Part shown: one piece after another, positions 2,500-46,144 of the stretch
Position numbering within the stretch: the first letter of the stretch is position 1
Layout: each line of letters starts with the position of its first letter
Assembly: GCA_963995525.1 (NCBI GenBank)
Contig: OZ023207.1
Span: 3,316,105-3,380,104 of the forward strand
Source of the DNA: Escarpia spicata
Taxonomy: Eukaryota; Annelida; Polychaeta; Sabellida; Siboglinidae
Length of the DNA stretch: 64,000 bases
Direction: 5' to 3'
Notes under the pieces: generated by a model
Seen by the model: the letters and a program-made list of their open reading frames with translations, nothing else
What the model was told of the DNA's origin: nothing
Databases searched by the model: none
Program-made: the position numbers and the translations under genes

Positions 2500-4050
2500 T
2501 TCATATTGGCACTTAGCTACTTCGTAGATTTGTTCGTTGTTTGATCTGTGCTAATTTGCAATCCAAGCTGGCGAATTTTAGGGGGAAAACTGTAAACACG
2601 GCAGACGACTGGTGTTTTTTGGGCACGACAGAGTTTATTGAATTGGTCAATTTTAAGATCCCAGGTGGATATTCGACGTTATGTAACATATAAGTATATA
2701 ATGTTACAACTGGATAGTATTCGTATCTATTAACTATAGCAAAGGAACAACAATACATAAGCAATCTCAATACATTCACGTCACCTTCTGCACTACGTAA
2801 TTACACACCTATTATTATTATAGGACACTGTTCGCATATGTATGTTAAACCTTTTACAGACAGTAATACACAGGCAACGGAATTGCAGTCCTCCCATTGT
2901 AGGACCTGATAAAGGCAGTATACACATATGTCTAGTATTACACACAATTGATTGATATAATACACACACGTGAATTTGAGATGACAATCAGCTGCACGGA
3001 CGCAGCGCGCCAAATGTGACCAAACCGCAACTTAGGCCGTACGTATGAAGGAACCGATTACTGGGCCCAGAGACTCTACAAGTTGGTGTGTGGGTGTGTC
3101 TTTGCGCCAGTAACGTAAATGACAGGTCTAGCTTCACTAGCAGGGTGTGGTCTCTACCCCCTAGTGACCTCTGGTGAATTAACATTGACTTAAGTACTAG
3201 AATATCCACCAGGGCTACACATCCGCTGGGTGTTATGTTACATAGAGTTGTAAATTGAGTTTAATGTGTACGGTATGTTGGCAATTTAACCTGTTTGGAC
3301 TTGGCGATACAATGGGGTAGCCTTGAGAGGTCGACAAGAAAGTGGCCGATGTGGAGGAACGTTGCCGCTGTCCAAAAGGCCAATAGCCAGCAAGTACGTA
3401 AGTACGTAAGTACGTAAGTAGACTTGGCGAGATTTTGGTAATATATGTAGAATTTGACATCCTTTATTGAAACGGGAATTTCGATTTTTCAATAAACGTT
3501 CCAACCGTTGTTTTGAACATCATTATACTTTGACGCATGCCTACTATCTGATCAGTGACATAAGTGTACATTAGATGTATTCTTCAACATAAAATCTGTG
3601 ATTTCTTCAAATTGTAAATGTACATTTCGTTGTAATCTGTTGTTGAAAAAGAGACAAACTTCTGTTGTATGTGTGTGGGGGTGGGGGTGGGTACGACTGT
3701 GCGTGTGAGCGTGCGTGCGTGCGTGCGTGTGTGTGCAGCAGAATTCCATTAAAGTCTTAATACAAAGGATTTGTCGCCTAGGATCAGACACAGGTCTTCC
3801 AAAGATTAATCTTATTTAGCCAATTTAATTATATTGAGTGTGCCCAATAAATTAGTCGTGCCAACATGTGTTCATGCATGCGCGTGTATTTACGAATATA
3901 TGCACGCAAGCAAACATGCACGCATTTACGTATACACCTATACTCATATGCACACAATATATAGGGCCTATGCACTTATACACATATGCAGTCGAAGTAT
4001 GTAAGACGTTTAACAGTAAACAATACTACTACAAATAATTCAACAATGTG
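2500..4050. repeat. 3' flank of GPCR module 1 (segmental duplicate)
   Basis: Two blocks match the flank of receptor G5: 2,500-2,590 parallels 32,380-32,460, and 3,225-3,570 parallels 32,462-32,800. Between them module 1 has about 635 bp (2,592-3,225) that module 3 lacks, so an insertion or a deletion occurred. The block holds short GTAC-type repeats at 3,393-3,420 and a GT/GC microsatellite at 3,663-3,740. No protein-coding potential is evident. Confidence 0.7.
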
Positions 4051-8870: not shown

Positions 8871-10794
8871 CAACTCTATGAAATTATGTAACCCCGGAAA
8901 TGATAGCAAACAAAATAAGGTCTATGAAAGATAATAAATCACTTGGAGTGGATGGGATTACGCACAAACAACTATTGTAAATTGTAAAATAAATGAGCAT
9001 ATAGCTTACAACAGTTTTTATTTTGTCATTAGAAGAAGGAGTGGTTCCTTTAGAATGGAAAGAAGCAAACATTATACCGTTATTTTAAAAATGTTCGAGA
9101 AACAAGTCAGAGAACTATCGACCAGTGAGTATAACATCGGTGATTTGCAAATTATTAGAAAGACTATACCCTTTAAAGCGAGGTCCTGCTTAAAATTATG
9201 CTATGATTTTTTAAATATCTCACTAAGTGGGTAGGCGAGGGACCACCAGTAGATATCAATGGCATAATTATTAGGCAATGGTATAATTAACTGCATACAA
9301 AAATGATTGATTGACAGAAGACAACGGGTCGTAGTTGACGAGGAGGCATCAAGCTGGAAATCAGTTTTGAGTTGGGTACCACAGGGATCGGTATTGAGAA
9401 TTGTATTATTCTTAGTATAAAAAAACGATTTGGACGATGTTATAGTAAGCAAGGTGTTGAAATGTTTTATGTTGCGGATGCTACAAGAGTGATTAGAAGG
9501 ATTAAACGTGTTGGAGACAGACAGCATTTACAAGATGATCTTGACAGATTCATCAAATGGTCTGAAATGTTGTTCAATTTTGGGAAATGTAAATGTTTCC
9601 TTATAGGCCATAGGGGGCCTTATCGCAAGAAGGACATATATAATATTATGTTAGAAAGAGTACAGAGGAGAACGACTAGAATGTTACCAAAACTTAGGGA
9701 TCTTAATTATCAAATACGCTTCAAAAATGTGGTTTAACAACACTTGAGATCAGGAGATTGAGTGGAAAAAGATAATAGTGCTTAAGATATTGTATGGTTA
9801 TGAAAATATTGATAGAAATATTTTTTTTAGTTTAGAAAGATAGAAAGATTAGACGACCTGGAGTTACATTAGTAAAGGAGCAGTGTAGATTACCTATCAG
9901 AAAGTTTTCATTTTCACAAAGGTCTGTAAATGAATGAAACAGATTATCTGCTGAATGTGTGGGTGATAGTAGCGTGAATACTTTTTAAAATAAAATCAAA
10001 ACAAACCTCAGAATGTCGGAATACACGTAGATAAAAAGGGTTGGACTCTCGATAAGCCAAAATGCTTCCTTGTCCACCTGCCATCTGAAGTTAATTATCT
10101 GGGAGGCAATCTTATTAAATGTTCTAAAAGGGAAAGAATCTGAAAGATTTAGATCTGATAGAGGATTCAGTGGGTCCCACGCCATGGGTGAGTCCAATTG
10201 AGGCGGTACACTAGCCCAATGGCCAAGTGCGAATATGTCTCGACAGTCGAGCCTTCAACACCGTCAACATCTTTGATGACATCATAATGTACAGTCAGAC
10301 AGCAGATGAGCACACGAAGGTTGGGAACAAAGTGCTTAAGCGAATGAGAGAGTAAAATGTCACAGCAAACAGAGACAAAATGTGAATTCCATAAGAGCAG
10401 AATCCAGTTTTTTGGACATGTCTTCAGTGAAGATGGAGTTAGTCTCGGTGAAGACAAAGTGTATGTTATCACGCAAGCAAGCAAGCCGAAGAATGTTGTA
10501 GAAATGGCCCAATATGTCTCCATATTAATTCCAGTGCACTGTGGTAGAGCCGTTGAAACCGCCTCACGAAACAAGATTTTCGCTTGGATTGGGGAGAGGA
10601 TCAGCATCAAGCTCTCAGTGAAAAACTGAATGGCGCACTGGGAAATGCTAAGTTATTTTTATATAAAGCTACACGCCAAACTCGTTAAGGATGCCAGCCC
10701 ACGTGGTCTATGAGCGATTCTTACACAGAAGAATATAGATGGAGAGTATTCCATAATTGAATATGGCAGTCGAGCGTTAATAGACGCGGAGTCG
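8067..10794. repeat. Right arm of the large inverted duplication
   Basis: Reverse-complement partner of 1-1,799. It contains a non-coding block, the CR1 copy at 8,876-10,125 and the Gypsy RT/RNase H segment. Because both arms carry the same CR1 insertion into the same Gypsy position, duplication followed the nested insertion. Confidence 0.8.
8876..10125 (+). pseudogene. CR1-like LINE fragment, 5'-truncated, plus strand
   Basis: Diverged relative of the 43.5-46.1 kb CR1 element. RT and C-terminal blocks are recognisable across stops and frameshifts: an EEGVVPLEWKEANIIPLF-like tract near 9,030-9,085, the YVADATRVIRR form of the catalytic block at about 9,465, and LERVQRRTTRMLPKLRDL at about 9,650. 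The 3' end runs into a GGCAATCTTATTAAATG tail near 10,110-10,125. It lies inside the Gypsy pol gene. Confidence 0.85.
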
Positions 10795-16044: not shown

Positions 16045-16416
16045 TACACTGTGTAATGTGGTTGAACCATAATGAAATCATCTTAGTCGCTCTATTCCGA
16101 ACTGACTAAAAAGGACTACATAAATTATAGTATTGACTAAATAATTGCACATCATTATCCAAATTTCAACAAATCGATATGGAGAGTTCAAATAATTGTC
16201 CTTTCATAGAGAGTACGTGTATAACAATAGGAACAGTTTTAATTATATATGCCAAACATCGATTTCTTTGTCAACGACGGCATGCTTCCAATACATTCAG
16301 TTGTTCTCCCAGTCGAGTACACTTTCGAGGTGATTTGAAGATGTGTCTGCACAATCAGGTAGAATATCCTTGCGCTAAAGTATACAATCATTTTCGTGCA
16401 ATGTTCGTCAAGTGGT
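16045..16416 (-). pseudogene. G3: GPCR fragment, TM5 to C-terminus
   Basis: Minus-strand pieces align to G5 from the end of TM5 (SARIFYLIVQTHLQITSKV, about 16,400-16,330) through TM6 and TM7 to the C-terminal tail and the conserved stop region. A stop lies at 16,239 and frameshifts follow. The N-terminal half was replaced at about 16,417 by unrelated sequence. G4 and G6 are its closest relatives. Confidence 0.85.
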
Positions 16417-16512
16417 GTGATGCCTCCCTTCTCGAGAAGCTCCTTCGCGCCACGGTGAGACAGGTCGATGTTGGTGAGGAGCACCTCCAGCCAGGCCAAG
16501 TACCTGGAGTAG
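16417..16512 (-). pseudogene. 96-bp fragment of the unknown-family gene found at 25.3-27.6 kb
   Basis: The minus strand encodes WLEVLLTNIDLSHRGAKELLEKGGIT, matching the reading of 26,199-26,299. It is joined in frame to G3, giving an 86-codon chimeric open frame (16,239-16,499). The boundary with G3 has a few bases of shared sequence (gtgatgcc / gtgtgatgcc). The other boundary abuts LINE-A copy A3. Confidence 0.9.
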
Positions 16513-17190
16513 TTTGATTTTCACTCTACACAACAAGGCTAAGCTCTGTTAGTAACAGTCATAATATAAACCAACACCTATATGGAGACGATACCGATAT
16601 TTACATTTCTTTATCTACGTCTAATACAAATTGCTCCTTAGGTCAGCTCAGAGAAAGTCTCAATGACATTTTCGTTTGGATGATTCAGAGTAGAATAGTT
16701 AGATGCTGATAAAACAGAGTTTCTCATAATTGGTACCCAGATGCAGCGTAACAAAATTAAAAGCTTTTTTCCGCACACCTTTGTTTAACCTGTATGACAC
16801 GCCTGCAGCTTCAGCACGAAAACCTTTGTTTAACCTGTATGACACGCCTGCAGCTTCAGCACGAAAACCTTTGTTTAACCTGTATGACACGCCTGCAGCT
16901 TCAGCACGAAAACCTTTGTTTAACCTGTATGACACGCCTGCAGCTTCAGCACGAAAACCTTTGTTTAACCTGTATGACACGCCTGCAGCTTCAGCACGAA
17001 AACCTTTGTTTAACCTGTATGACACGCCTGCAGCTTCAGCACGAAATCTTGGAAGAATATTTGATGACAATTTAAATTTACACAACATATTTCTCAAACT
17101 TGTCCCTGCTGCTAATACCGTATACGTCATTTATGACGTATTCACCGTTATTTTCCTCTTTCTTTTTTAAAAAACTATCGCAACTGCACT
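16511..17190 (+). pseudogene. LINE-A copy A3, 5' part
   Basis: Starts within the RT at tttgattttcactctacac, matching A2 from 14,154. It continues through the LIIGTQMQRNK region and the six-unit repeat to gcaactgcactt at 17,190, where a CR1 element interrupts it. The LINE resumes at 20,314. An open frame of 146 codons covers 16,730-17,170. Confidence 0.9.
16777..17045 (+). repeat. 45-bp minisatellite, 6 units, inside an RT frame
   Basis: Same unit as at 14,447-14,670; tgtatgacac recurs at 16,791, 16,836, 16,881, 16,926, 16,971 and 17,016. The units are essentially identical to one another, more homogeneous than in the five-unit array. Confidence 0.98.
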
Positions 17191-20100
17191 TTAACAAGAT
17201 TATCAAGATTGAATAAGATTGCCACCCAGAGAATCAACTCTAGGTGGCAGGTGGACAAGGAAGCCTTTTGGCTTACCGAGTGTCCAACCCTTTTATCTAT
17301 GTGTATCCAGCCCTTCTGAGGTATGTGTCGATTTTATTCTTAAACATATTCACGCTACTAGCGCCAACACAATCAGCAGATAATCTGTTCCATTAATTTA
17401 CAGGCCTTTGTGAAAATGAGAACTTTCTTATATATAATCTACACTGCTCCTTTGCTAATGTAACTTTATGTCCTCTAGTCCTTCTATCTTTGTTAACTGA
17501 GAAAAATTTCTATCAATATTTTCAAAATCATTTATTATTTTAAGCACTTCTATCTGATCTCCTCTCAATCTCCTGGTCTGTAGTGTTGTTAAACCACATT
17601 CTTTTAGGCGAATTTAATAAATAAGATCCCTCTTATTCTTAATGAGGCCTGCCTATTGTTTTGTACAGCGGTATTATTAGTTCTTTCTCCTTATACGCTA
17701 TATTTCGCCTAATTAATCCAAAGATTTGATTTCCCTTTGAAGCTACAATTCCGTTAAGCCTAAGTCCTTTTCTTTTGCAGTAGTACTTAGTACAGTACCC
17801 CGATTGTATATTCTACCTCTTCGTTCCCATGTCCTGTGTGGAGGCATTTGCATTTCCCAAAATTGAACAGCATTTGCCACTTTTCAGACCATTTGATCAA
17901 CCTGTCAAGATCATCTTGAAATGCTGTCTATCTTCATCACTTTTAATCCTTCTACACTTTTGTATCATCCACAAATTTCATCACCTTGCTTGTTATTTCA
18001 TCATCCAAATCGTTGATATATATTAAGAATAATATTGGTCCTAGTACTGATCCCTGTGGTACCCCAATCAATAGCGATTTCAAGTTTGAAACCTCCCCAT
18101 CAACTACAACACGTTGTGTAAACTGTATTAGAATGTTGGTTAAACTGCATTAGAATGCATTAGCTCCTACCACTAGAAATACAGTTTTATTATTAAGTTT
18201 CTTTCTCGTGCCATCTTGTCAAAAGAATAATATAGGTCCTAGTACTGATACCTGTGGTACCCCACTCAATACCGATTTCAAGTTTGAAGCCTCCCCATCA
18301 ACTACTACACGTTGTCTTCTGTCAATCAGCCATTTTTCTATCCAGTTTATTATACCATTTCCTATGCCATGGGCCTATAGTTTAAGCAGTAATCTTTGAT
18401 ATGGTACTTCGTCGAACATTTTTTGAAAATCTAAGTAGACGATATCTACTGGTGATCCCTCATCTACCCACTTAGTGATGTTTTCCAAACAACATAACAT
18501 ATTTGTTAAACATGATCTCGCTTTAAAAAAACCATGTCGAGATGGGTTTATCAAGTGGTGTTTAAGAAGAAAATCAACCATGTGATCTTTAATTAGTCTT
18601 TCTAATAATTTACAAATCACTGATGTTAAACTCACTGGTCTATAGTTCTCTGACTTGTTTCTCGAACCTTTTTTTAAAATAACGGTATAATGTTTGCCTC
18701 TTTCCATCCTAAATCAACCATTCCGTCTTCGAATGACAAATTGAAAACTGTTGCAAGCGGTACGCTAATTTGTTCTACAATTTCCAATAGTAGTTTGGGC
18801 GGAATCCCATCCACTCCAGGTGATTTATTATCCTTCATAAACCTTATTTTCTTAGCTACCATTTCCGGGGTTACAATTAATTGTCCTACATAGTCTGAAT
18901 CTGCCCCCTTGAACTTAGCCTCTGGTACTTGGCAGTGAACTAATATCTTCCCTGGTAAACACTGAACTAAAGTACTCATTCAGGTCTTCTGCCATTATGA
19001 ATCCCTCTGATATTATATTTCCAGCATTATCTTCTAGAGGACCGACCTTACCTTGAACTTTCTATTTGCTTCGAACATACGCATACAAATTCTTGCTGTC
19101 ATGTTTTATATTACTAGCTAATTGTTGTTCATAGCTTCTCTTTGAATTTCAGCTGTAGCTTGGTTAAGTGCTTCTTTATAAATGTTGTAGTCTTTATCAT
19201 TTCCAGTACATCTATATGACTTCCATATCGTTTGTTTATACTTAATTTTTCTAATGGCTTCTTTCGATAAGTGTTTCTTTTTGGACCGTTTCCCTTGTTT
19301 TTTGAAGGGTACAAATTTATTGATTATGTACTTAATTCCATTCTTTAATACATTCCAGCATTCTGTTGCTGTTTTATTTTTCATTGTGTTATTCCAGTCT
19401 ATCTTTGCTAAATATTTCCCCATGTCGTTATACCTTCCTTTGTGGAAAATTCTCCAATACTGCTTTTTACTATTCCTTTCTGATTTTACTTTGATGGTAA
19501 AATGTATCTGGTTGTTATCACTACTCCCCAGTGGCTCGCATATCTTGACATTGTCGACTAATTCATTCTGTGAGGACAAAACTACGTCTAACACATTCTC
19601 ACCACTTGTTCATTCTAGCACATGTTGAGAAAGGAAAGTATCTTGAAATAAAAATAAAAACTCACTCCCCATACTCTGTAAAGATTTCCATTGTATATGC
19701 CCATGTTTAAAATACCCCATAATAACACAGTCCCGTTTGCGTACTTCCCTTGTAGCGTTTTGTACTTTTTCATTCTCTTCTATGCTTATGTTAGGACTTC
19801 GATACACTAACCCAACTGTTAACGTTGAGTTTCCTGTAACTATTTCCTGTAACTATGTTACACCAAACAGCTTCTTCGCAATCTGCTTCTCTTTCTAATT
19901 TATTTCATAAGCCTGGATAGATTCTTTAATTTATAAAATAACTCTACCTCCCTTTCTTCCTATTCTATATTTTCTAAACATTACATATCCTGTCAGTTCC
20001 AATTCGGCATCTGATGTATCGATGGTGGTCCAGGATTCTGTTATACCTATACATATGAGGGTCAATATCTTCTACCATAATGTTTAGTTCATTTCTTTTG

Positions 20101-20313
20101 TTTACTCTACCCTGTCAGTCACATGTTCTATCCTTACCCCCGGTATACAAACAACGACGTCCTTCCCCTCGCTTAGTGTCTTGTCCGTCTTTCTCATAAT
20201 GGAGTCGCCCATAAACACCCTCTCTTTCCTCATTGCCCCCTCAATCACTGCCTCAGAGTAGCTCCTTCTTCGGTTTGCATCTGTCTGGTTGTTGTCTTTT
20301 CCCCCTAAACTTG
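17191..20313 (-). pseudogene. CR1-like LINE inserted into LINE-A copy A3
   Basis: A long minus-strand CR1 copy, closely related to 43,364-46,144 but with many lesions. The 3' tail is at 17,191-17,230. RT and linker open pieces lie at 18,375-18,707, 18,674-18,979 and 19,118-19,594. The endonuclease piece at 19,610-19,807 has GYFKHGHIQW where the intact copy has GDFNHGHIQW, so a catalytic-site Asp is lost. The 5' part extends further than in the 43-46 kb copy, through about 20,033-20,313, and includes GDSIMRKTDKTLSEGKDVVV, the start of an SGNH/GDSL esterase-type ORF1. A segment of the RT is duplicated at 18,016-18,117 and 18,225-18,320. Confidence 0.9.
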
Positions 20314-25039: not shown

Positions 25040-25279
25040 AAATGTGACAGAAGGGAATTTGGGAGTGACGATGACAGGAGGAAAGGTGACAATAGACACA
25101 GCATAAGGAAAGAATGGAACGGAAGAGATTGTGACAGGAAAGCAGAAGACAGGGGAACAAGACTACAACCAGACAGATGCAAACCGGAGAAGAAGCTATT
25201 CTGAGACAGTGATTGAGGGGGCATTGATAAAAGAGAGGTGTTCATGGGCGACTCTATTCTGAGAAAGACACTAAGCGAA
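25040..25279 (+). pseudogene. CR1 ORF1 (SGNH esterase-type) 5' remnant, part 1
   Basis: A purine-rich leader is followed by a reading with FMGDSILRKTLSE, where GDS is the block I motif of SGNH/GDSL hydrolases that some CR1 elements carry in ORF1. It resembles 58,330-58,560 and the minus strand of 20,150-20,313. The frame breaks at 25,280, where the TIR-bounded element begins, and resumes at 28,129. Confidence 0.75.
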
Positions 25280-28128
25280 TAGTCCTGTCGGAAGGTATTC
25301 CCCCAAGCACCCAGTGTATTTCTAAATGAAACATATTTTATTGCAACCCTGAAGGTGTCTAGTAAACATATTTGGATGTTCCCATTTCCAAATAATATCC
25401 GAAAAGGCAAATGTCACCGCTCGTCTGGGGCAGATTGGTAAGCACATACCGGAGAGCCATACCATCCTGGATGTGGATCGCGTCTTTTGGGTAGGGTACT
25501 TCCTCGGGGGTGTCATTTAGCAAGAAATGTAGCATGTAGACCTTCTTCGTTTTGGCGAAGAATCCGTCGGGGGTGCCGAGGCTGGGAGGAGCAGGGGTGA
25601 GGGAGTACCGCATCAACTCATCAAGGAGCTGCTCACGGCATTGGATTAACTTTCCCTGTGTGGAGGTGAGCTTGACTGTCTTGTTGGAGGCCCCCATCGT
25701 CTTCAGCTTCTGCTTCTTGATGGGTTCAAAAAGGTCACCCCGGATGACCCATTCTGGAAACAATCACTGATGAGGGCCTTCTTGTCTTCCTTGCCAACAG
25801 TGTCAGCTCGAAAGACATTGATCTCGACCTCTGTGAAAATATTAACACTGGATGCGACGTCGTAGAGCCGGTCTTTGTTAGGGATGGCGAAGGAGTCCGT
25901 GAAGTTCTATATAGCAGTGAGTGTTCGCTTCACAGCTCTCTCGCTCTTCTTGACCTCAGCAGCCTCGAGCTCGCGATGCTTCCCTGCCTTTTCACTCGGG
26001 GTCATTGATATCTCCACACATCTCGAGCATCCTCTCAAAATACTGGGCATGAGTGGATGTGGTGCGGCACCAATGATAGGCACTGAACATTGAGAACAGC
26101 CCTACTCGACCTTCTGCCGTTTTGCCGAACTTCATGATCGTTTCCTCCATTGTTTTACCGACTGCGCTGAGTGCACAGAAAATGAGTGGCCGTGCCACCG
26201 TGATGCCGCCCTTCTCGAGAAGTTCCTTCGCGCCAGGGTGAAACATGTCGATGTTGGTGAGGAACACCTCCAGTCAAGCCAAGTATCTGGAGTAATTCGG
26301 GCCATCAAATGCGAAGAACGGGTTAGCCATCTCCCCATTGCACATGTGGAAGAGCTTGAGGCTGTTGGTTTCCACAGAATAGATGAGCATGAGGATGATG
26401 CGGGTGTGCTCAATGAAGCCGAACCAGAAGGTAGGGGTCTTGCCGAAGTGACCGACACGCACCTTGTCCTCAAACTCCACGTATTTGTTGATGATGGTGA
26501 GAGTTGAGGGGTCCTGGAGAGCGAGGTCGAGGTTCTCTCGGCTGCAGGACTTGACCAGGTTGAGTAGGGCCATATGGTTGTCTCCATCTACTTTTTTCTC
26601 ATGATCAAACTGCTCCATCAGTTGCCGCTCCATCGCCTTACATACATTCTTCAGACCGAATAGCGCCTTGCCATCAGTCTTCCCACTGAGGACATTGTTC
26701 AGGCAGCCGCTGATGACGAGGCTACCCTCGAGGATAATCTCAGCGTAGCCCCAACCCCTGAACTTGTTGCCCAATCACCAAACGCATGTAATTCATCACA
26801 GTGTGGAACTGTCCTGGGGTGACTACATGCGTACTTCTGTCCGACCTCGGAGGTGGCTTCTTCAGACCGTCTCAGTAGCTCCTGGGTGACGGAGTACTCG
26901 GTGAAACGTAATCAATGGTCATCTTCATGGCGGGCTTCGTTCCAGTGGCGGAGATGAATCCACCAAATGCAGGGACCGGCTGCTTACCACTGCTCCCCGT
27001 CATCCGCACCAAGAACCACACACGGTACTCCGTCAAACTTGCTTCGTACACCTTGTCGTTCTCCGCAGGAGCTGTGTACATGAATTTGGGTCCTATATAT
27101 AGAGGAGGGAGGGTTTCGGGGGTATCCACCTTGAGTGACCGACTCTTAGCCAGGTCATACAGCGGCAAGCTCTATGATCTGAACCATGATGCCGCCTATA
27201 CGATTTACGACATTGGGGCCATGGGCACTGGTAGTGATTTTGCTTAGGTTATTCCATCGAGACGGAACACGTCGTTTCCTTCCCCACTGATAATCGGAGG
27301 AATCAGGTAGGTCGACACCTCAATGATGGACTTGGCCATGACCGTCTCGAGTTCTAGGCCGAAGTCGTAGGACTCAGAATAGCCGAGTCTGATAGAGGTC
27401 AGCTCCTTGCTGCGGTACGGGTGCCGGACTGTGCAACAGAGGAGGATGTGTTTCGGCAGCTTCCATTCACCCTTCGTCACCGCACGGCAGAGGTCCTGGC
27501 AAATATAAAGCACGAGGCATGTCGTCTTCTCACACTTCTCTCCAACCTCTGCCTCTCCAGACATAGCAATGTTGAGGAAATTGATCAGAACATTAGAAAG
27601 CTGCTAAGGAGGAGAGGGAAGAGGAATATGATCAGGAGATTGACTATGATGAACTGCTTCTTGGCGATGATGTTGATTAGTATGTAGTGTCGAGGGTAAG
27701 TTACGGGTAGTTTTCTTTCTTCTTGGACTCATAATGTGCCCATTGGCATATAATGTTGAGTCAGTGCTTATGCGCAATCACCTATCCTTAACTTAGTAAG
27801 TGACTGGATTTCAGGCTTTAAAATATGGTATTATGTGCATTTTGAGACAATAAGTATCGTTGAATCGTCAAAATAACCATCTCAAGCGATTCCTCATGCC
27901 ACAATTATACGAAATGTGGGTTCATTTGTCTTTGTATGACGAATTATTCAAAAGTTATGGGTATCCTTGATTTTACCAGTCGCGCGTGACAAAATCCAAT
28001 ATGGCTGCCAAACGGACCCCTTCGGACATTATTTGGAAAAGGGAGCTTCCAAATATGTTTACTAGACACCTTCAGGGTTGCAAAAAAGTAAGTTTCATTT
28101 AGAAATGTCATACCTTCCGTCTGTACTA
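25280..28128. mobile_element. 2,849-bp element with long inverted termini, family unknown
   Basis: The left end (25,280-about 25,408) and right end (about 28,015-28,128) are inverted repeats. Both begin TAGT(C/A)C(T/A)G(T/A)CGGAAGGTAT read inward, then share TTTCTAAATGAAAC, TTGCAACCCTGAAGGTGTCT, AGTAAACATATTTGGA and CCAAATAAT(A/G)TCCGAA. The left end has about 15 extra bases. GAA flanks both sides (25,277-25,279 and 28,129-28,131), consistent with a 3-bp target duplication in the CR1 ORF1 remnant. It carries one decayed minus-strand gene. No known transposase motif was recognised, so I cannot assign a superfamily. Confidence 0.88.
25359..27564 (-). pseudogene. Decayed gene of an unplaced, repeat-associated protein family
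   Basis: Successive minus-strand open pieces read as one protein in order: 27,564-27,244 (LCCTVRHPYRSKELTSIRLG, SYDFGLELETVMAK), 27,168-26,872 (VWFLVRMTGSSG, KPAMKMTIDYVSP), 26,774-26,274 (KFRGWGYAEIILEG, FFAFDGPNYSRYLA), 26,267-25,992 (LEKGGITVARPLIFCALSAV, EETIMKF) and 25,763-25,359 (FFAKTKKVYMLHFLLNDTP). Frames shift between pieces. From memory, unverified, similar predicted proteins recur in many copies in cnidarian and other invertebrate genomes. The last 14 or so codons and the stop lie inside the left inverted terminus, and the right terminus encodes the same tail on the plus strand. The C-terminus looks truncated at about IHIQDG...SGDICLFG. Function unknown. Confidence 0.75.
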
Positions 28129-28200
28129 GAAGGGGAGGACGTCGGTGTTTGTTTGTCCGGGGCTAGATTAGAACATGTGACTGAAAGGGTAGATAATAAT
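28129..28200 (+). pseudogene. CR1 ORF1 remnant, part 2
   Basis: After the inserted element the frame reads GEDVGVCLSGARLEHVTERV, continuing the esterase-type ORF1 of 25,040-25,279. The same stretch is seen at 58,555-58,600 and on the minus strand near 20,140. At about 28,195 it is cut by the ATT-type tail of a minus-strand L2-like LINE. Confidence 0.8.
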
Positions 28201-43363: not shown

Positions 43364-46144
43364 CAAGATTTAACAAGATTTAACAAGATTGCCACCCAGA
43401 GAATTAACTCTAGGTAGCAGGTGGACAAGGAAGCCCTTGGCTTTTCGAGAGTCCGACCTTTTTATCTATGTGTATCCCGCCCGTCTGAGGTATGTGTCGA
43501 TTTTATTTTTAAACATATTCACGCTACTAGCACCCACACAATCAGCAGGTAATCTGTTCCATTCATTTACAGTCCTTTGTGAAAATGAAAACTTTCTTAT
43601 ATCCAATCTACTCTGCTCCTTTGCTAATGCAAGATCATGTCCTCTAGTCCTTCTATCTTTCTTAACTGAGAAAAACATATTTCTATCAATATTTTCATAA
43701 CCCTTCAATATTTTAAACACTTCTATCTGATCTCCTCTCAATCTCCTGGTCTCTAGTGTTGTTAAACCGCATTTTTTTAGGCGTATTTCATAACTAAGAT
43801 CCCTCAGATTTGGTATCATTTTAGTTGCTCTCCTCTGCACTCTTTCTAGCATATCTATGTCCTTCCTGCGATATGGCCTCCACGCTTGAATACAATATTC
43901 TAAATGAGGCCTAACTATTGTTTTGTACAGCGGTATTATTAGCTCTTTTTCCTTATACGTTATGTTTCGCCTAATTAATCCAAGGATTTGATTTCCCTTT
44001 GAAGCTGCAATTCCGCACTGCTCTGAAATCTTCATATCAGCACTAACGGTTAACCCTAAGTCCTTTTCTTTTACAGTAGTACTTAGTACAGTACCCCCCA
44101 TTGTATATTCTACCTCTTCGTTCCCATGTCCTATGTGGAGGCATTTACATTTCCCAAAATTGAACATCATTTGCCATTTTTCAGACCATTTCATCAACCT
44201 GTCAAGATCATCTTGTAAATGCTGTCTATCTCCATCACTTTTAATCCTTCTAAACACTTTTGTATCATCCGCAAATTTCAACACCTTGCTTGTTATTTCA
44301 TCATCCAAATCGTTGATGTATATTAAGAATAATATAGGACCTAATACTGATCCCTGTGGTACCCCACTCAATACCGATTTCCAGTTTGAAGCCTCCCCAT
44401 CAACTACTACACGTTGTCTTCTGTCAATCAGCCATTGTTCTATCCAGTTTATTATACCATTTCCTATGCCATGGGCCTTTAGTTTAAGCAGTAATCTTTG
44501 ATGTGGTACTTTGTCAAAAGCTTTTTGAAAATCTAAGTAGACGATATCTACTGGTGTTCCCTCATCTACCCACTTAGTGATGTCTTCCAAAAAACATAAC
44601 ATATTTGTTAAGCATGACCTCGCTTTAAAAAAACCATGTTGAGATGGGTTTATCAAGTTTTGTTTAGCAAGAAAATCCACCATGTGATCTTTAATTAGTC
44701 TTTCTAATAATTTACAAATCACTGATGTTAAACTCACTGGTCTATAGTTCTCTGACTTGTTTCTCGAACCTTTTTTGAATAACGGTATAATGTTTGCTTC
44801 TTTCCATTCTAAAGGAACCACTCCCTCTTCTAATGACAAGTTGAAAACTGTTGCAAGTGGTATGCTAATTTGTTCTACAATTTCCAATAGTAGTTTGGGT
44901 GGAATACCATCCACTCCAGGTGATTTATTTTCCTTCATAGCCCTTATTTTCTTAGCTACCATTTCCGGGGTTACAATTAATTGTCCTAAATAGTCTGAAT
45001 CTGCCCCCTTGAACTTAGCCTCTGGTATTGGCAGTGAACTAATATCTTCCCTGGTAAACACTGAACTAAAGTACTCATTCAGGTCTTCTGCCATTATGAA
45101 TCCCTCTGATATCATATTTCCAGCACTATCTTCTAGAGGACCGACCTTATCTTGAACTTTCTGTTTGCTTCGAACATACGCATAAAAACTCTTGCTGTCA
45201 TGTTTTATATTACTAGCTAATTGTTGTTCATAGCTTCTCTTTGAATTTCTAATTTCAGCAGTAGCTTGGTTAAGTGCTTCTTTATAATTGTTGTAGTCTT
45301 CATCATTTCCAGTACATCTATATGACTTCCACATCATTTGTTTATACTTAATTTTTCTAATGGCTTCTTTCGATAAGTGTTTCTTTTTGGACCGTTTTCC
45401 TTGGTTTTTGAAGGGTACAAATTTATCGATTATGCACTTAATTTCACTCTTTAATATATTCCAGCATTCTGTTGCCGTCTTATTTTTCAGTGTCTTATTC
45501 CAGTCTATCTTTGCTAAATATTTCCTCATGTCCTTATACCTTCCTTTGTGGAAATTTCTCCTATACTGCTTTTTGCTATTCCTTTCTGATTTTACTTTGA
45601 TGGTAAAATGTATCTGGTTGTGATCGCTACTCCCCAGTGGCTCACATATCTTGACATTGTCAACTAATTCATTCTGTGAGGACAAAACTATATCTAACAC
45701 ATTCTCACCCCTGGTTGGTTCTAGCACATGTTGAGAAAGGAATGTATCTTGAACTAAAACTAAAAACTTGTGGTCCTCTCTCCCCATACTCTGTAGAGAT
45801 TTCCATTGTATATGCCCATGGTTAAAATCCCCCATAATAATACAGTCCCGTTTGCTTACTTCCCTTATAGCGTTTTGTATTTTTTCATTCTCATCTATGC
45901 TTATGTTTGGACTTCGATAAACCAACCCAACCGTCAACGTTGAGTTTCCTGTAACTATGTTACACCAAACAGCTTCTTCGCAATCTGCTTCTCTTTCTAA
46001 TTTTATTTCATAAGCCTGAATAGATTCTTTAATATATAAAATAACTCCACCTCCCTTTCTTCCTATTCTATCTTTTCTAAACATTACATATCCTGTCAGT
46101 CCCAATTCAGCATCTGATATATCGGTGGTGGTCCAGGATTCGGT
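43364..46144 (-). mobile_element. CR1-like LINE, nearly intact ORF2, 5'-truncated
   Basis: Minus-strand element from about 46,144 to its tail at 43,364-43,395, where the 3' end repeats TTAAATCTTG, the short tandem tail typical of CR1-group elements. Truncation falls at the start of the endonuclease, directly after an in-frame TAA at 46,145-46,147. No ORF1 is present. Confidence 0.92.
43466..46144 (-). CDS. CR1-type ORF2: endonuclease (partial) and reverse transcriptase
   Basis: An uninterrupted frame of about 892 codons. From the first possible TTG codon at 46,105 it is 879 residues, and 13 sense codons (TESWTTTDISDAE) precede it. Positions below use the 879-residue numbering. The APE endonuclease runs to about 170: YRSPN at 63, GDFNHGHIQW at 92 and SSDHNQIHF at 159; the N-terminal catalytic strand is lost. 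The RT runs about 375-640: motif A YLDFQKAFDKV at 524, [10 protein letters not shown] at 581 and FADDTKVF at 611, with catalytic Asp 525, 613 and 614 present. The C-terminal domain ends in YLRRAGYT. In the element it would copy its own RNA at a nicked target; this copy probably cannot nick. It has no ATG start and no ORF1. The frame is far better preserved than in the copies at 0.7, 8.9 and 17.2 kb. Confidence 0.93.
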   Translation of the reverse strand, partial: TESWTTTDISDAELGLTGYVMFRKDRIGRKGGGVILYIKESIQAYEIKLEREADCEEAVWCNIVTGNSTLTVGLVYRSPNISIDENEKIQNAIREVSKRDCIIMGDFNHGHIQWKSLQSMGREDHKFLVLVQDTFLSQHVLEPTRGENVLDIVLSSQNELVDNVKICEPLGSSDHNQIHFTIKVKSERNSKKQYRRNFHKGRYKDMRKYLAKIDWNKTLKNKTATECWNILKSEIKCIIDKFVPFKNQGKRSKKKHLSKEAIRKIKYKQMMWKSYRCTGNDEDYNNYKEALNQATAEIRNSKRSYEQQLASNIKHDSKSFYAYVRSKQKVQDKVGPLEDSAGNMISEGFIMAEDLNEYFSSVFTREDISSLPIPEAKFKGADSDYLGQLIVTPEMVAKKIRAMKENKSPGVDGIPPKLLLEIVEQISIPLATVFNLSLEEGVVPLEWKEANIIPLFKKGSRNKSENYRPVSLTSVICKLLERLIKDHMVDFLAKQNLINPSQHGFFKARSCLTNMLCFLEDITKWVDEGTPVDIVYLDFQKAFDKVPHQRLLLKLKAHGIGNGIINWIEQWLIDRRQRVVVDGEASNWKSVLSGVPQGSVLGPILFLIYINDLDDEITSKVLKFADDTKVFRRIKSDGDRQHLQDDLDRLMKWSEKWQMMFNFGKCKCLHIGHGNEEVEYTMGGTVLSTTVKEKDLGLTVSADMKISEQCGIAASKGNQILGLIRRNITYKEKELIIPLYKTIVRPHLEYCIQAWRPYRRKDIDMLERVQRRATKMIPNLRDLSYEIRLKKCGLTTLETRRLRGDQIEVFKILKGYENIDRNMFFSVKKDRRTRGHDLALAKEQSRLDIRKFSFSQRTVNEWNRLPADCVGASSVNMFKNKIDTYLRRAGYT

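Follow-up and report, generated by a model that had tools for sequence, protein, structure and literature searches.

The 64,000-nucleotide stretch of the Escarpia spicata genome analysed here (contig OZ023207.1; "the window") carries at positions 25280-28128 a real DNA-transposon insertion. The copy is dead and internally deleted, and the cut-and-paste element from which it derives very probably belongs to the Academ superfamily, in an AcademX-like branch. These bounds match those of an initial annotation, which had proposed a DNA transposon bounded by terminal inverted repeats. That proposal was borne out by inverted arms, a GAA on both sides and, elsewhere in the window, a copy related to the host sequence but free of the insertion. 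The features of the insertion are as follows.

25277-25279, no strand: left target duplication GAA, read from the sequence; a 3-bp duplication is the rule in the family.
25280-25403, plus strand: left inverted terminus, truncated on its inner side, identified by arm pairing; it ends where the gene remnant adjoins.
25404-27639, minus strand: decayed transposase-nuclease gene with stops and frameshifts, found by tblastn with protein P0001 (residues 379-1195 of 1580 amino acids).
27595-28106, no strand: inner part of the right terminus, found at both ends in most fetched copies and here at the right end only (match at positions 2915-3426 of the window piece).
28021-28128, minus strand: right inverted terminus, the partner of the left one, identified by arm pairing.
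28129-28131, no strand: right target duplication GAA, read from the sequence.
20106-20306 (approximate), minus strand: natural empty site in a relative of the host sequence, found by alignment to the window flanks.

Two pairs of inverted arms are preserved in the window copy, a longer one (25318-25403 and 28021-28106, 86 nt, 92% identity) and an outer one (25280-25298 and 28110-28128, 19 nt, 84%); the two are not in register, since a short stretch close to the outer end is missing from the right arm. When the flanks are joined with a single GAA they form an open frame, MGDSILRKTLSEGEDVGVCLSGARLEHVTERVD, as had been claimed for the host sequence, a putative CR1 ORF1 in the initial annotation, after removal of the element and one GAA; with the insertion in place, this frame hits a stop at the element start. 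The empty-site copy aligns without gaps across the junction, with the triplet GAG rather than GAA and a 9-base difference upstream. The interior is, as annotated, a single decayed gene on the minus strand containing the three protein blocks originally quoted. Its remnant adjoins the left terminus directly at 25404. Three portions are missing from it: the N-terminal region, the segment holding the second catalytic D, and almost the whole nuclease, from residue 1196 of P0001 onwards. The first catalytic D is replaced by N in the frame that still matches (WNN), and the reading frame is interrupted by stops and shifts. Elsewhere in the window, a 99-bp fragment of the same gene with sharp edges lies at 16416-16514 on the minus strand (block NYSRYLAWLEVLLTNIDLSHRGAKELLEKGGIT); its identity to genomic copies is at most 95%, and no termini were recognised near it.

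The terminal 20-mer suggested in the initial annotation matches at 274 places in the 1.06-Gb genome when three mismatches are allowed, compared with 35 for a reversed control, and many of its exact matches form inverted pairs 0.8-5.5 kb apart, so that the termini are paired genome-wide as predicted. From the exact matches listed we retrieved 20 loci (L009-L028) with such pairs, and these have in common a terminus close to TAGTACAGTCGGAAGGTATGCCCCCCATGCACCC. One of them, L010 (C3:3809937-3813879), lies about 0.47 Mb away and agrees with the window at all 3943 bases, element and flanks alike, and another, L011 (C3:4070180-4074135), is an inverted duplicate of the window with its flanks at 96.5% identity. 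These copies reflect either a recent segmental duplication or an uncollapsed assembly, and L010, L011 and the window were scored as one event, leaving 19 independent sites. A perfect 3-bp duplication lies directly outside the terminus at 15 of these 19 sites, in line with the expectation that further copies would have one, and a longer duplication was found at none; shuffling of partners in 20000 trials gave a mean of 1.1 and a maximum of 6. The four sites without a 3-bp duplication are L009 and L015, in each of which one end is poorly preserved, L028, and L016, whose two ends are intact. At L018 the order TTA-element-TTA interrupts a repeat that has three insertion-free copies in the window, with junctions near 9030, 18733 and 44832 that read CATTAGAAG, CATTCGAAG and CATTAGAAG, respectively. 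These copies of the repeat span 8887-9166, 18223-18903 and 44304-45003. The window copy alone would not rule out a chance inverted repeat around a fragment of a host gene, or an artefact of assembly, and the identity of L010 over 3943 bases could be read in the latter sense; nevertheless, the 3-bp duplications and natural empty sites, together with the genome-wide pairing of the termini, refute this explanation, to which we assign a practically negligible probability.

The gene belongs to the element defined by the termini. A 177-residue core of the protein has at least 152 matches in the genome, a lower bound with 150 of 472 candidates scored. On contigs C1-C14, all listed matches with 80% identity or more (118 matches at 97 places) were compared with the 99 exact 20-mers listed: an exact 20-mer lies within 6 kb of 52 of the 97 gene places, compared with 0-2 after each of six shifts of 20-200 kb, mutated termini not being counted. 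Conversely, 71 of the 99 exact 20-mers lie near a place with a close protein match. More than half of the close protein matches thus have an exact terminus in their vicinity; the initial annotation would take such proteins for transposon proteins if they sit inside the same termini elsewhere. None of 21 divergent protein matches lies near a terminus of the window family, as expected for other families. Four divergent loci (46-50% identity to the core) were fetched, and in three of them (L030, L031 and L032) inverted repeats totalling about 0.5-1 kb surround the gene; the fourth (L029) has none around it. L031 and L032 have a common terminal motif, GATATGCCCCTCGTGCACCCC, with small variants, which resembles GTATGCCCCCCATGCACCC of the window family, and in L032 each side carries a GAT if the element start is set at TGTATATA, a by-eye, unscored reading. 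Around position 38394342 of C3, a protein match of 82% identity falls inside an open frame of 1833 residues, far longer than in other copies and possibly a fusion or an overlapping frame.

It could be argued that the protein is a passenger and that a different transposase moves the termini in trans, given that no intact copy was found among the 20 fetched loci and the window, and that the same termini also bound short copies devoid of the gene (L027, 0.84 kb). This is very unlikely, as the protein has its own predicted DDE core and three of the four divergent families fetched also hold it between long inverted repeats.

The initial annotation saw no known transposase motif in the protein, a view that the structural models do not support: a DDE core is predicted, its triad is conserved, and a FEN/XPG-type nuclease accompanies it. 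Long relatives reach 1580 residues, the length of the sea-anemone protein P0001 (Actinostola). For their middle part the models give a fold resembling that of DDE transposases (P element, Hermes, RAG1), with a helical insertion, including the RNase H-like fold that structure prediction had been suggested to look for, while their C-terminal part is predicted to adopt an EXO1/FEN1/XPG-type fold. Foldseek gave no significant match with the DDE model. VIA-align 2, which re-aligns only the structures ranked by Foldseek, so that families missing from the ranking are not thereby ruled out, produced the matches to the P element, Hermes and RAG1 transposases, with 5-11% identity in the rows concerned. 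No transposase or nuclease model scored above its cut-off in Pfam scans of the family's open reading frames and relatives, and a sequence search of the PDB with a profile of 31 relatives gave no match. Below threshold, the Pfam family DUF6589 (PF20231) covers the DDE core in 4 of the 31 relatives in set A2 (best value 3.7e-5) and also matches 3 of 7 proteins of a sister clade (5.3e-6 for P0130), which suggests, at the level of sequence profiles, that this family without assigned function may be a transposase core of the same kind.

Active-site positions were read from an alignment of the 56 relatives (out of 186) with at least 1000 residues. The D of the WDN block is kept in 47 of 48 rows that have a letter there (8 gaps), the D of TFD in 53 of 53 (3 gaps) and the E of the DKTME block in 54 of 56. 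These residues, D509, D680 and E928 in P0001, are presumed to form the catalytic triad of the transposase core, an assignment based on strand order in the models and on the conservation counts rather than on measured distances. In the nuclease part, seven FEN-type acids are kept in 47/49, 47/49, 44/45, 45/45, 43/44, 43/44 and 41/41 of the lettered rows (7-15 gaps), and one of these positions is D where FEN1 has E; in P0001 the presumed nuclease acids include D1175, D1212, D1340, D1342 and D1398. Among the fetched copies, L021 and L017, for example, have coding sequence for the nuclease. Long relatives also have N-terminal Cys/His segments that are probably zinc- and DNA-binding. The predicted chemistry class, a DDE cut-and-paste transposase with a fused FEN-type nuclease, would stand without the Academ label.

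The combination of a DDE core, a nuclease, a 3-bp duplication and a length of about 5 kb fits the AcademX branch, so that the group, which had been thought unclassified, finds a probable place in a known superfamily. The nuclease of AcademX is of the XPG type, like the fold predicted here. The description in PMC10045372 gives duplications of 3 or 4 bp for AcademX and of 9 or 10 bp for AcademH, and ties this difference to the presence of a nuclease or a helicase, respectively; the window family has exactly 3 bp at the sites mentioned above. Academ is counted among the DDD/E superfamilies in PMC9587614, in agreement with the predicted fold and conserved triad, and the figures in PMC10294476 include a mean of 5565 bp for curated bivalve Academ elements, close to the 5.0-5.6 kb of our five longest fetched copies (L012, L016, L021, L025 and L028), of which L012 includes about 0.7 kb absent from other copies. 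A possible difference from AcademX is that the window family has long terminal repeats of changing length. The label follows from published descriptions rather than from comparison with curated Academ sequences, and for this reason it is put forward as most likely rather than as established.

Other systems were compared as well. P element, hAT (Hermes) and RAG1/Transib transposases are similar in their predicted DDE fold with a helical insertion, but identity in the aligned rows is low, as given above, their duplications differ in length from those of the window family, and we know of no fused flap nuclease in any of them. The 5' nucleases FEN1, EXO1, XPG and XRN resemble the C-terminal domain in fold and in their set of acids; nonetheless, identity in the listed rows is 8-16%, one E is D, and the nuclease of the window family is fused to a transposase. 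The matches of the window family to DUF6589 differ from curated members in falling below the cut-off. PIF/Harbinger elements, which use the 3-bp target TWA, were rejected, as just 1 of the 15 duplicated triplets is TWA (TTA, in L018). Zator also makes a 3-bp duplication, and agrees with the window family in that length; to our knowledge, no fused nuclease occurs in Zator. AcademH was ruled out, since the duplication is 3 bp and not 9-10 bp and no helicase model was found in the Pfam scans, and so was KDZ (Kyakuja, Dileera, Zisupton), for which PMC12730594 mentions duplications of 7-8 bp.

As the initial annotation had stated, relatives of the protein are mostly nameless in databases, or labelled uncharacterized or hypothetical. 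They come from fish, molluscs, echinoderms, cnidarians, annelids and sea spiders; among viral contigs (IMG/VR), 27 pattern matches included none encoding a relative. In a tree of 33 rows, drawn with a midpoint root, the clade of the window family also contains proteins from fish, an anemone, an urchin, annelids, sea spiders and bivalves. The window consensus, a grouper protein and an unnamed one together make up the smallest group with good support (100/98), and support is weak (89/63) for the pairing of the anemone protein with that of an urchin. Branching within this clade departs from host phylogeny, and its order suggests horizontal transfer.

The same tree bears on whether the window clade would be better ranked as a separate superfamily, sister to Academ proper, with the same architecture and chemistry but an early split, no CXC cluster and a place apart kept for it by curators. 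A long, fully supported branch (1.92) parts it from a clade of Strongylocentrotus, Hydra, Holothuria, Anneissia and other proteins, identity between the two clades is about 25%, and CXC-like tails (at least six Cys in the last 160 residues), which many sister-clade proteins have at their C-terminus, were counted in 24 of the 35 long proteins from the second search and in none of the 21 from the first, some of which are cut short. In a Pfam scan of the sister clade this tail was named TCR in 3 of 7 proteins, with one unrelated lectin match. However, the triad and the nuclease acids are common to both clades in one alignment, and we consider separate rank unlikely. The CXC-bearing clade (the P0070/P0071 group) seems to be present in the same genome, in which a search with P0067 gave 63 matches, some of them window-clade copies. 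Repeats were assessed at two sister-clade loci fetched with more flank than L033-L036: inverted repeats of 275 bp surround the gene at L038, and none were recognisable at L037.

The initial annotation was right that inverted termini are present, but its figure of about 115-130 bp is that of the remnant in the window copy: across 19 oriented copies, arm length varies between 86 bp and about 1.48 kb. In L021 coordinates, counted from the terminus at the 3' end of the gene, the reach of the other arm falls at 438-515 (six copies), 583-601 (three, two of them being the window and its duplicate L011), 904-907 (three), 1021-1057 (three) and 1438-1473 (four), with an extra matching piece beyond a gap in L017 and L023. 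Exact endpoints are shared at unrelated sites (1473 in three, 904 in two), so that these lengths, at least, probably each have a single origin followed by amplification. In long arms, the 3' part of the gene is present in inverted form at the opposite end, and the copies with the longest arms, such as L024, lack much of its 5' part. Repair of the excision gap by copying from the wrong arm is a likely cause. Because copies with long repeats carry the 3' end of the gene at each end, a first majority consensus mixed both ends, and a second one was built from six copies with long 5' parts.

By our reading of the models, transposition would begin with copies of the transposase-nuclease binding and pairing the inverted termini. 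Given the predicted fold and conserved triad, the DDE site would free the 3' ends and join them to target positions three bases apart, and repair after joining would leave the 3-bp duplication that we observe. The nuclease may act at the ends of the element by cutting or trimming the 5' strands that are not transferred, or on flaps after joining, a role that could be likened to that of TnsA beside TnsB in Tn7. Both the catalysis and this division of labour between core and nuclease are thus putative. A broader proposal, possible but rather doubtful in our opinion, would see in the window clade an animal lineage of its own, so far undescribed and standing beside Academ. In it, a single chain would combine a DDE core for the transferred strand with a complete FEN-type nuclease for the other, as a one-protein counterpart of TnsA plus TnsB; repeat lengths would have been re-set repeatedly by copying the 3' end of the element's own gene to its other end, and the lineage would have moved between animal phyla.

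The superfamily itself is known but thinly described. Our literature search, with Repbase outside its reach, found no title or abstract about this element, nor DUF6589. What may be new are the family, its clade (without the CXC cluster and spread over several animal phyla) and the stepwise changes in terminal-repeat length, from about 0.45 to 1.5 kb. The main point of interest is the protein, with a transposase core and a complete flap-nuclease site in one chain. Relatives that databases leave unnamed or uncharacterized can now be interpreted as proteins of transposons, with both active sites identified, and their conserved residues open the role of a nuclease in a DDE transposon to direct tests. 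If the nuclease does cut the second strand, these elements would constitute a eukaryotic, single-chain parallel to TnsA/TnsB of Tn7.
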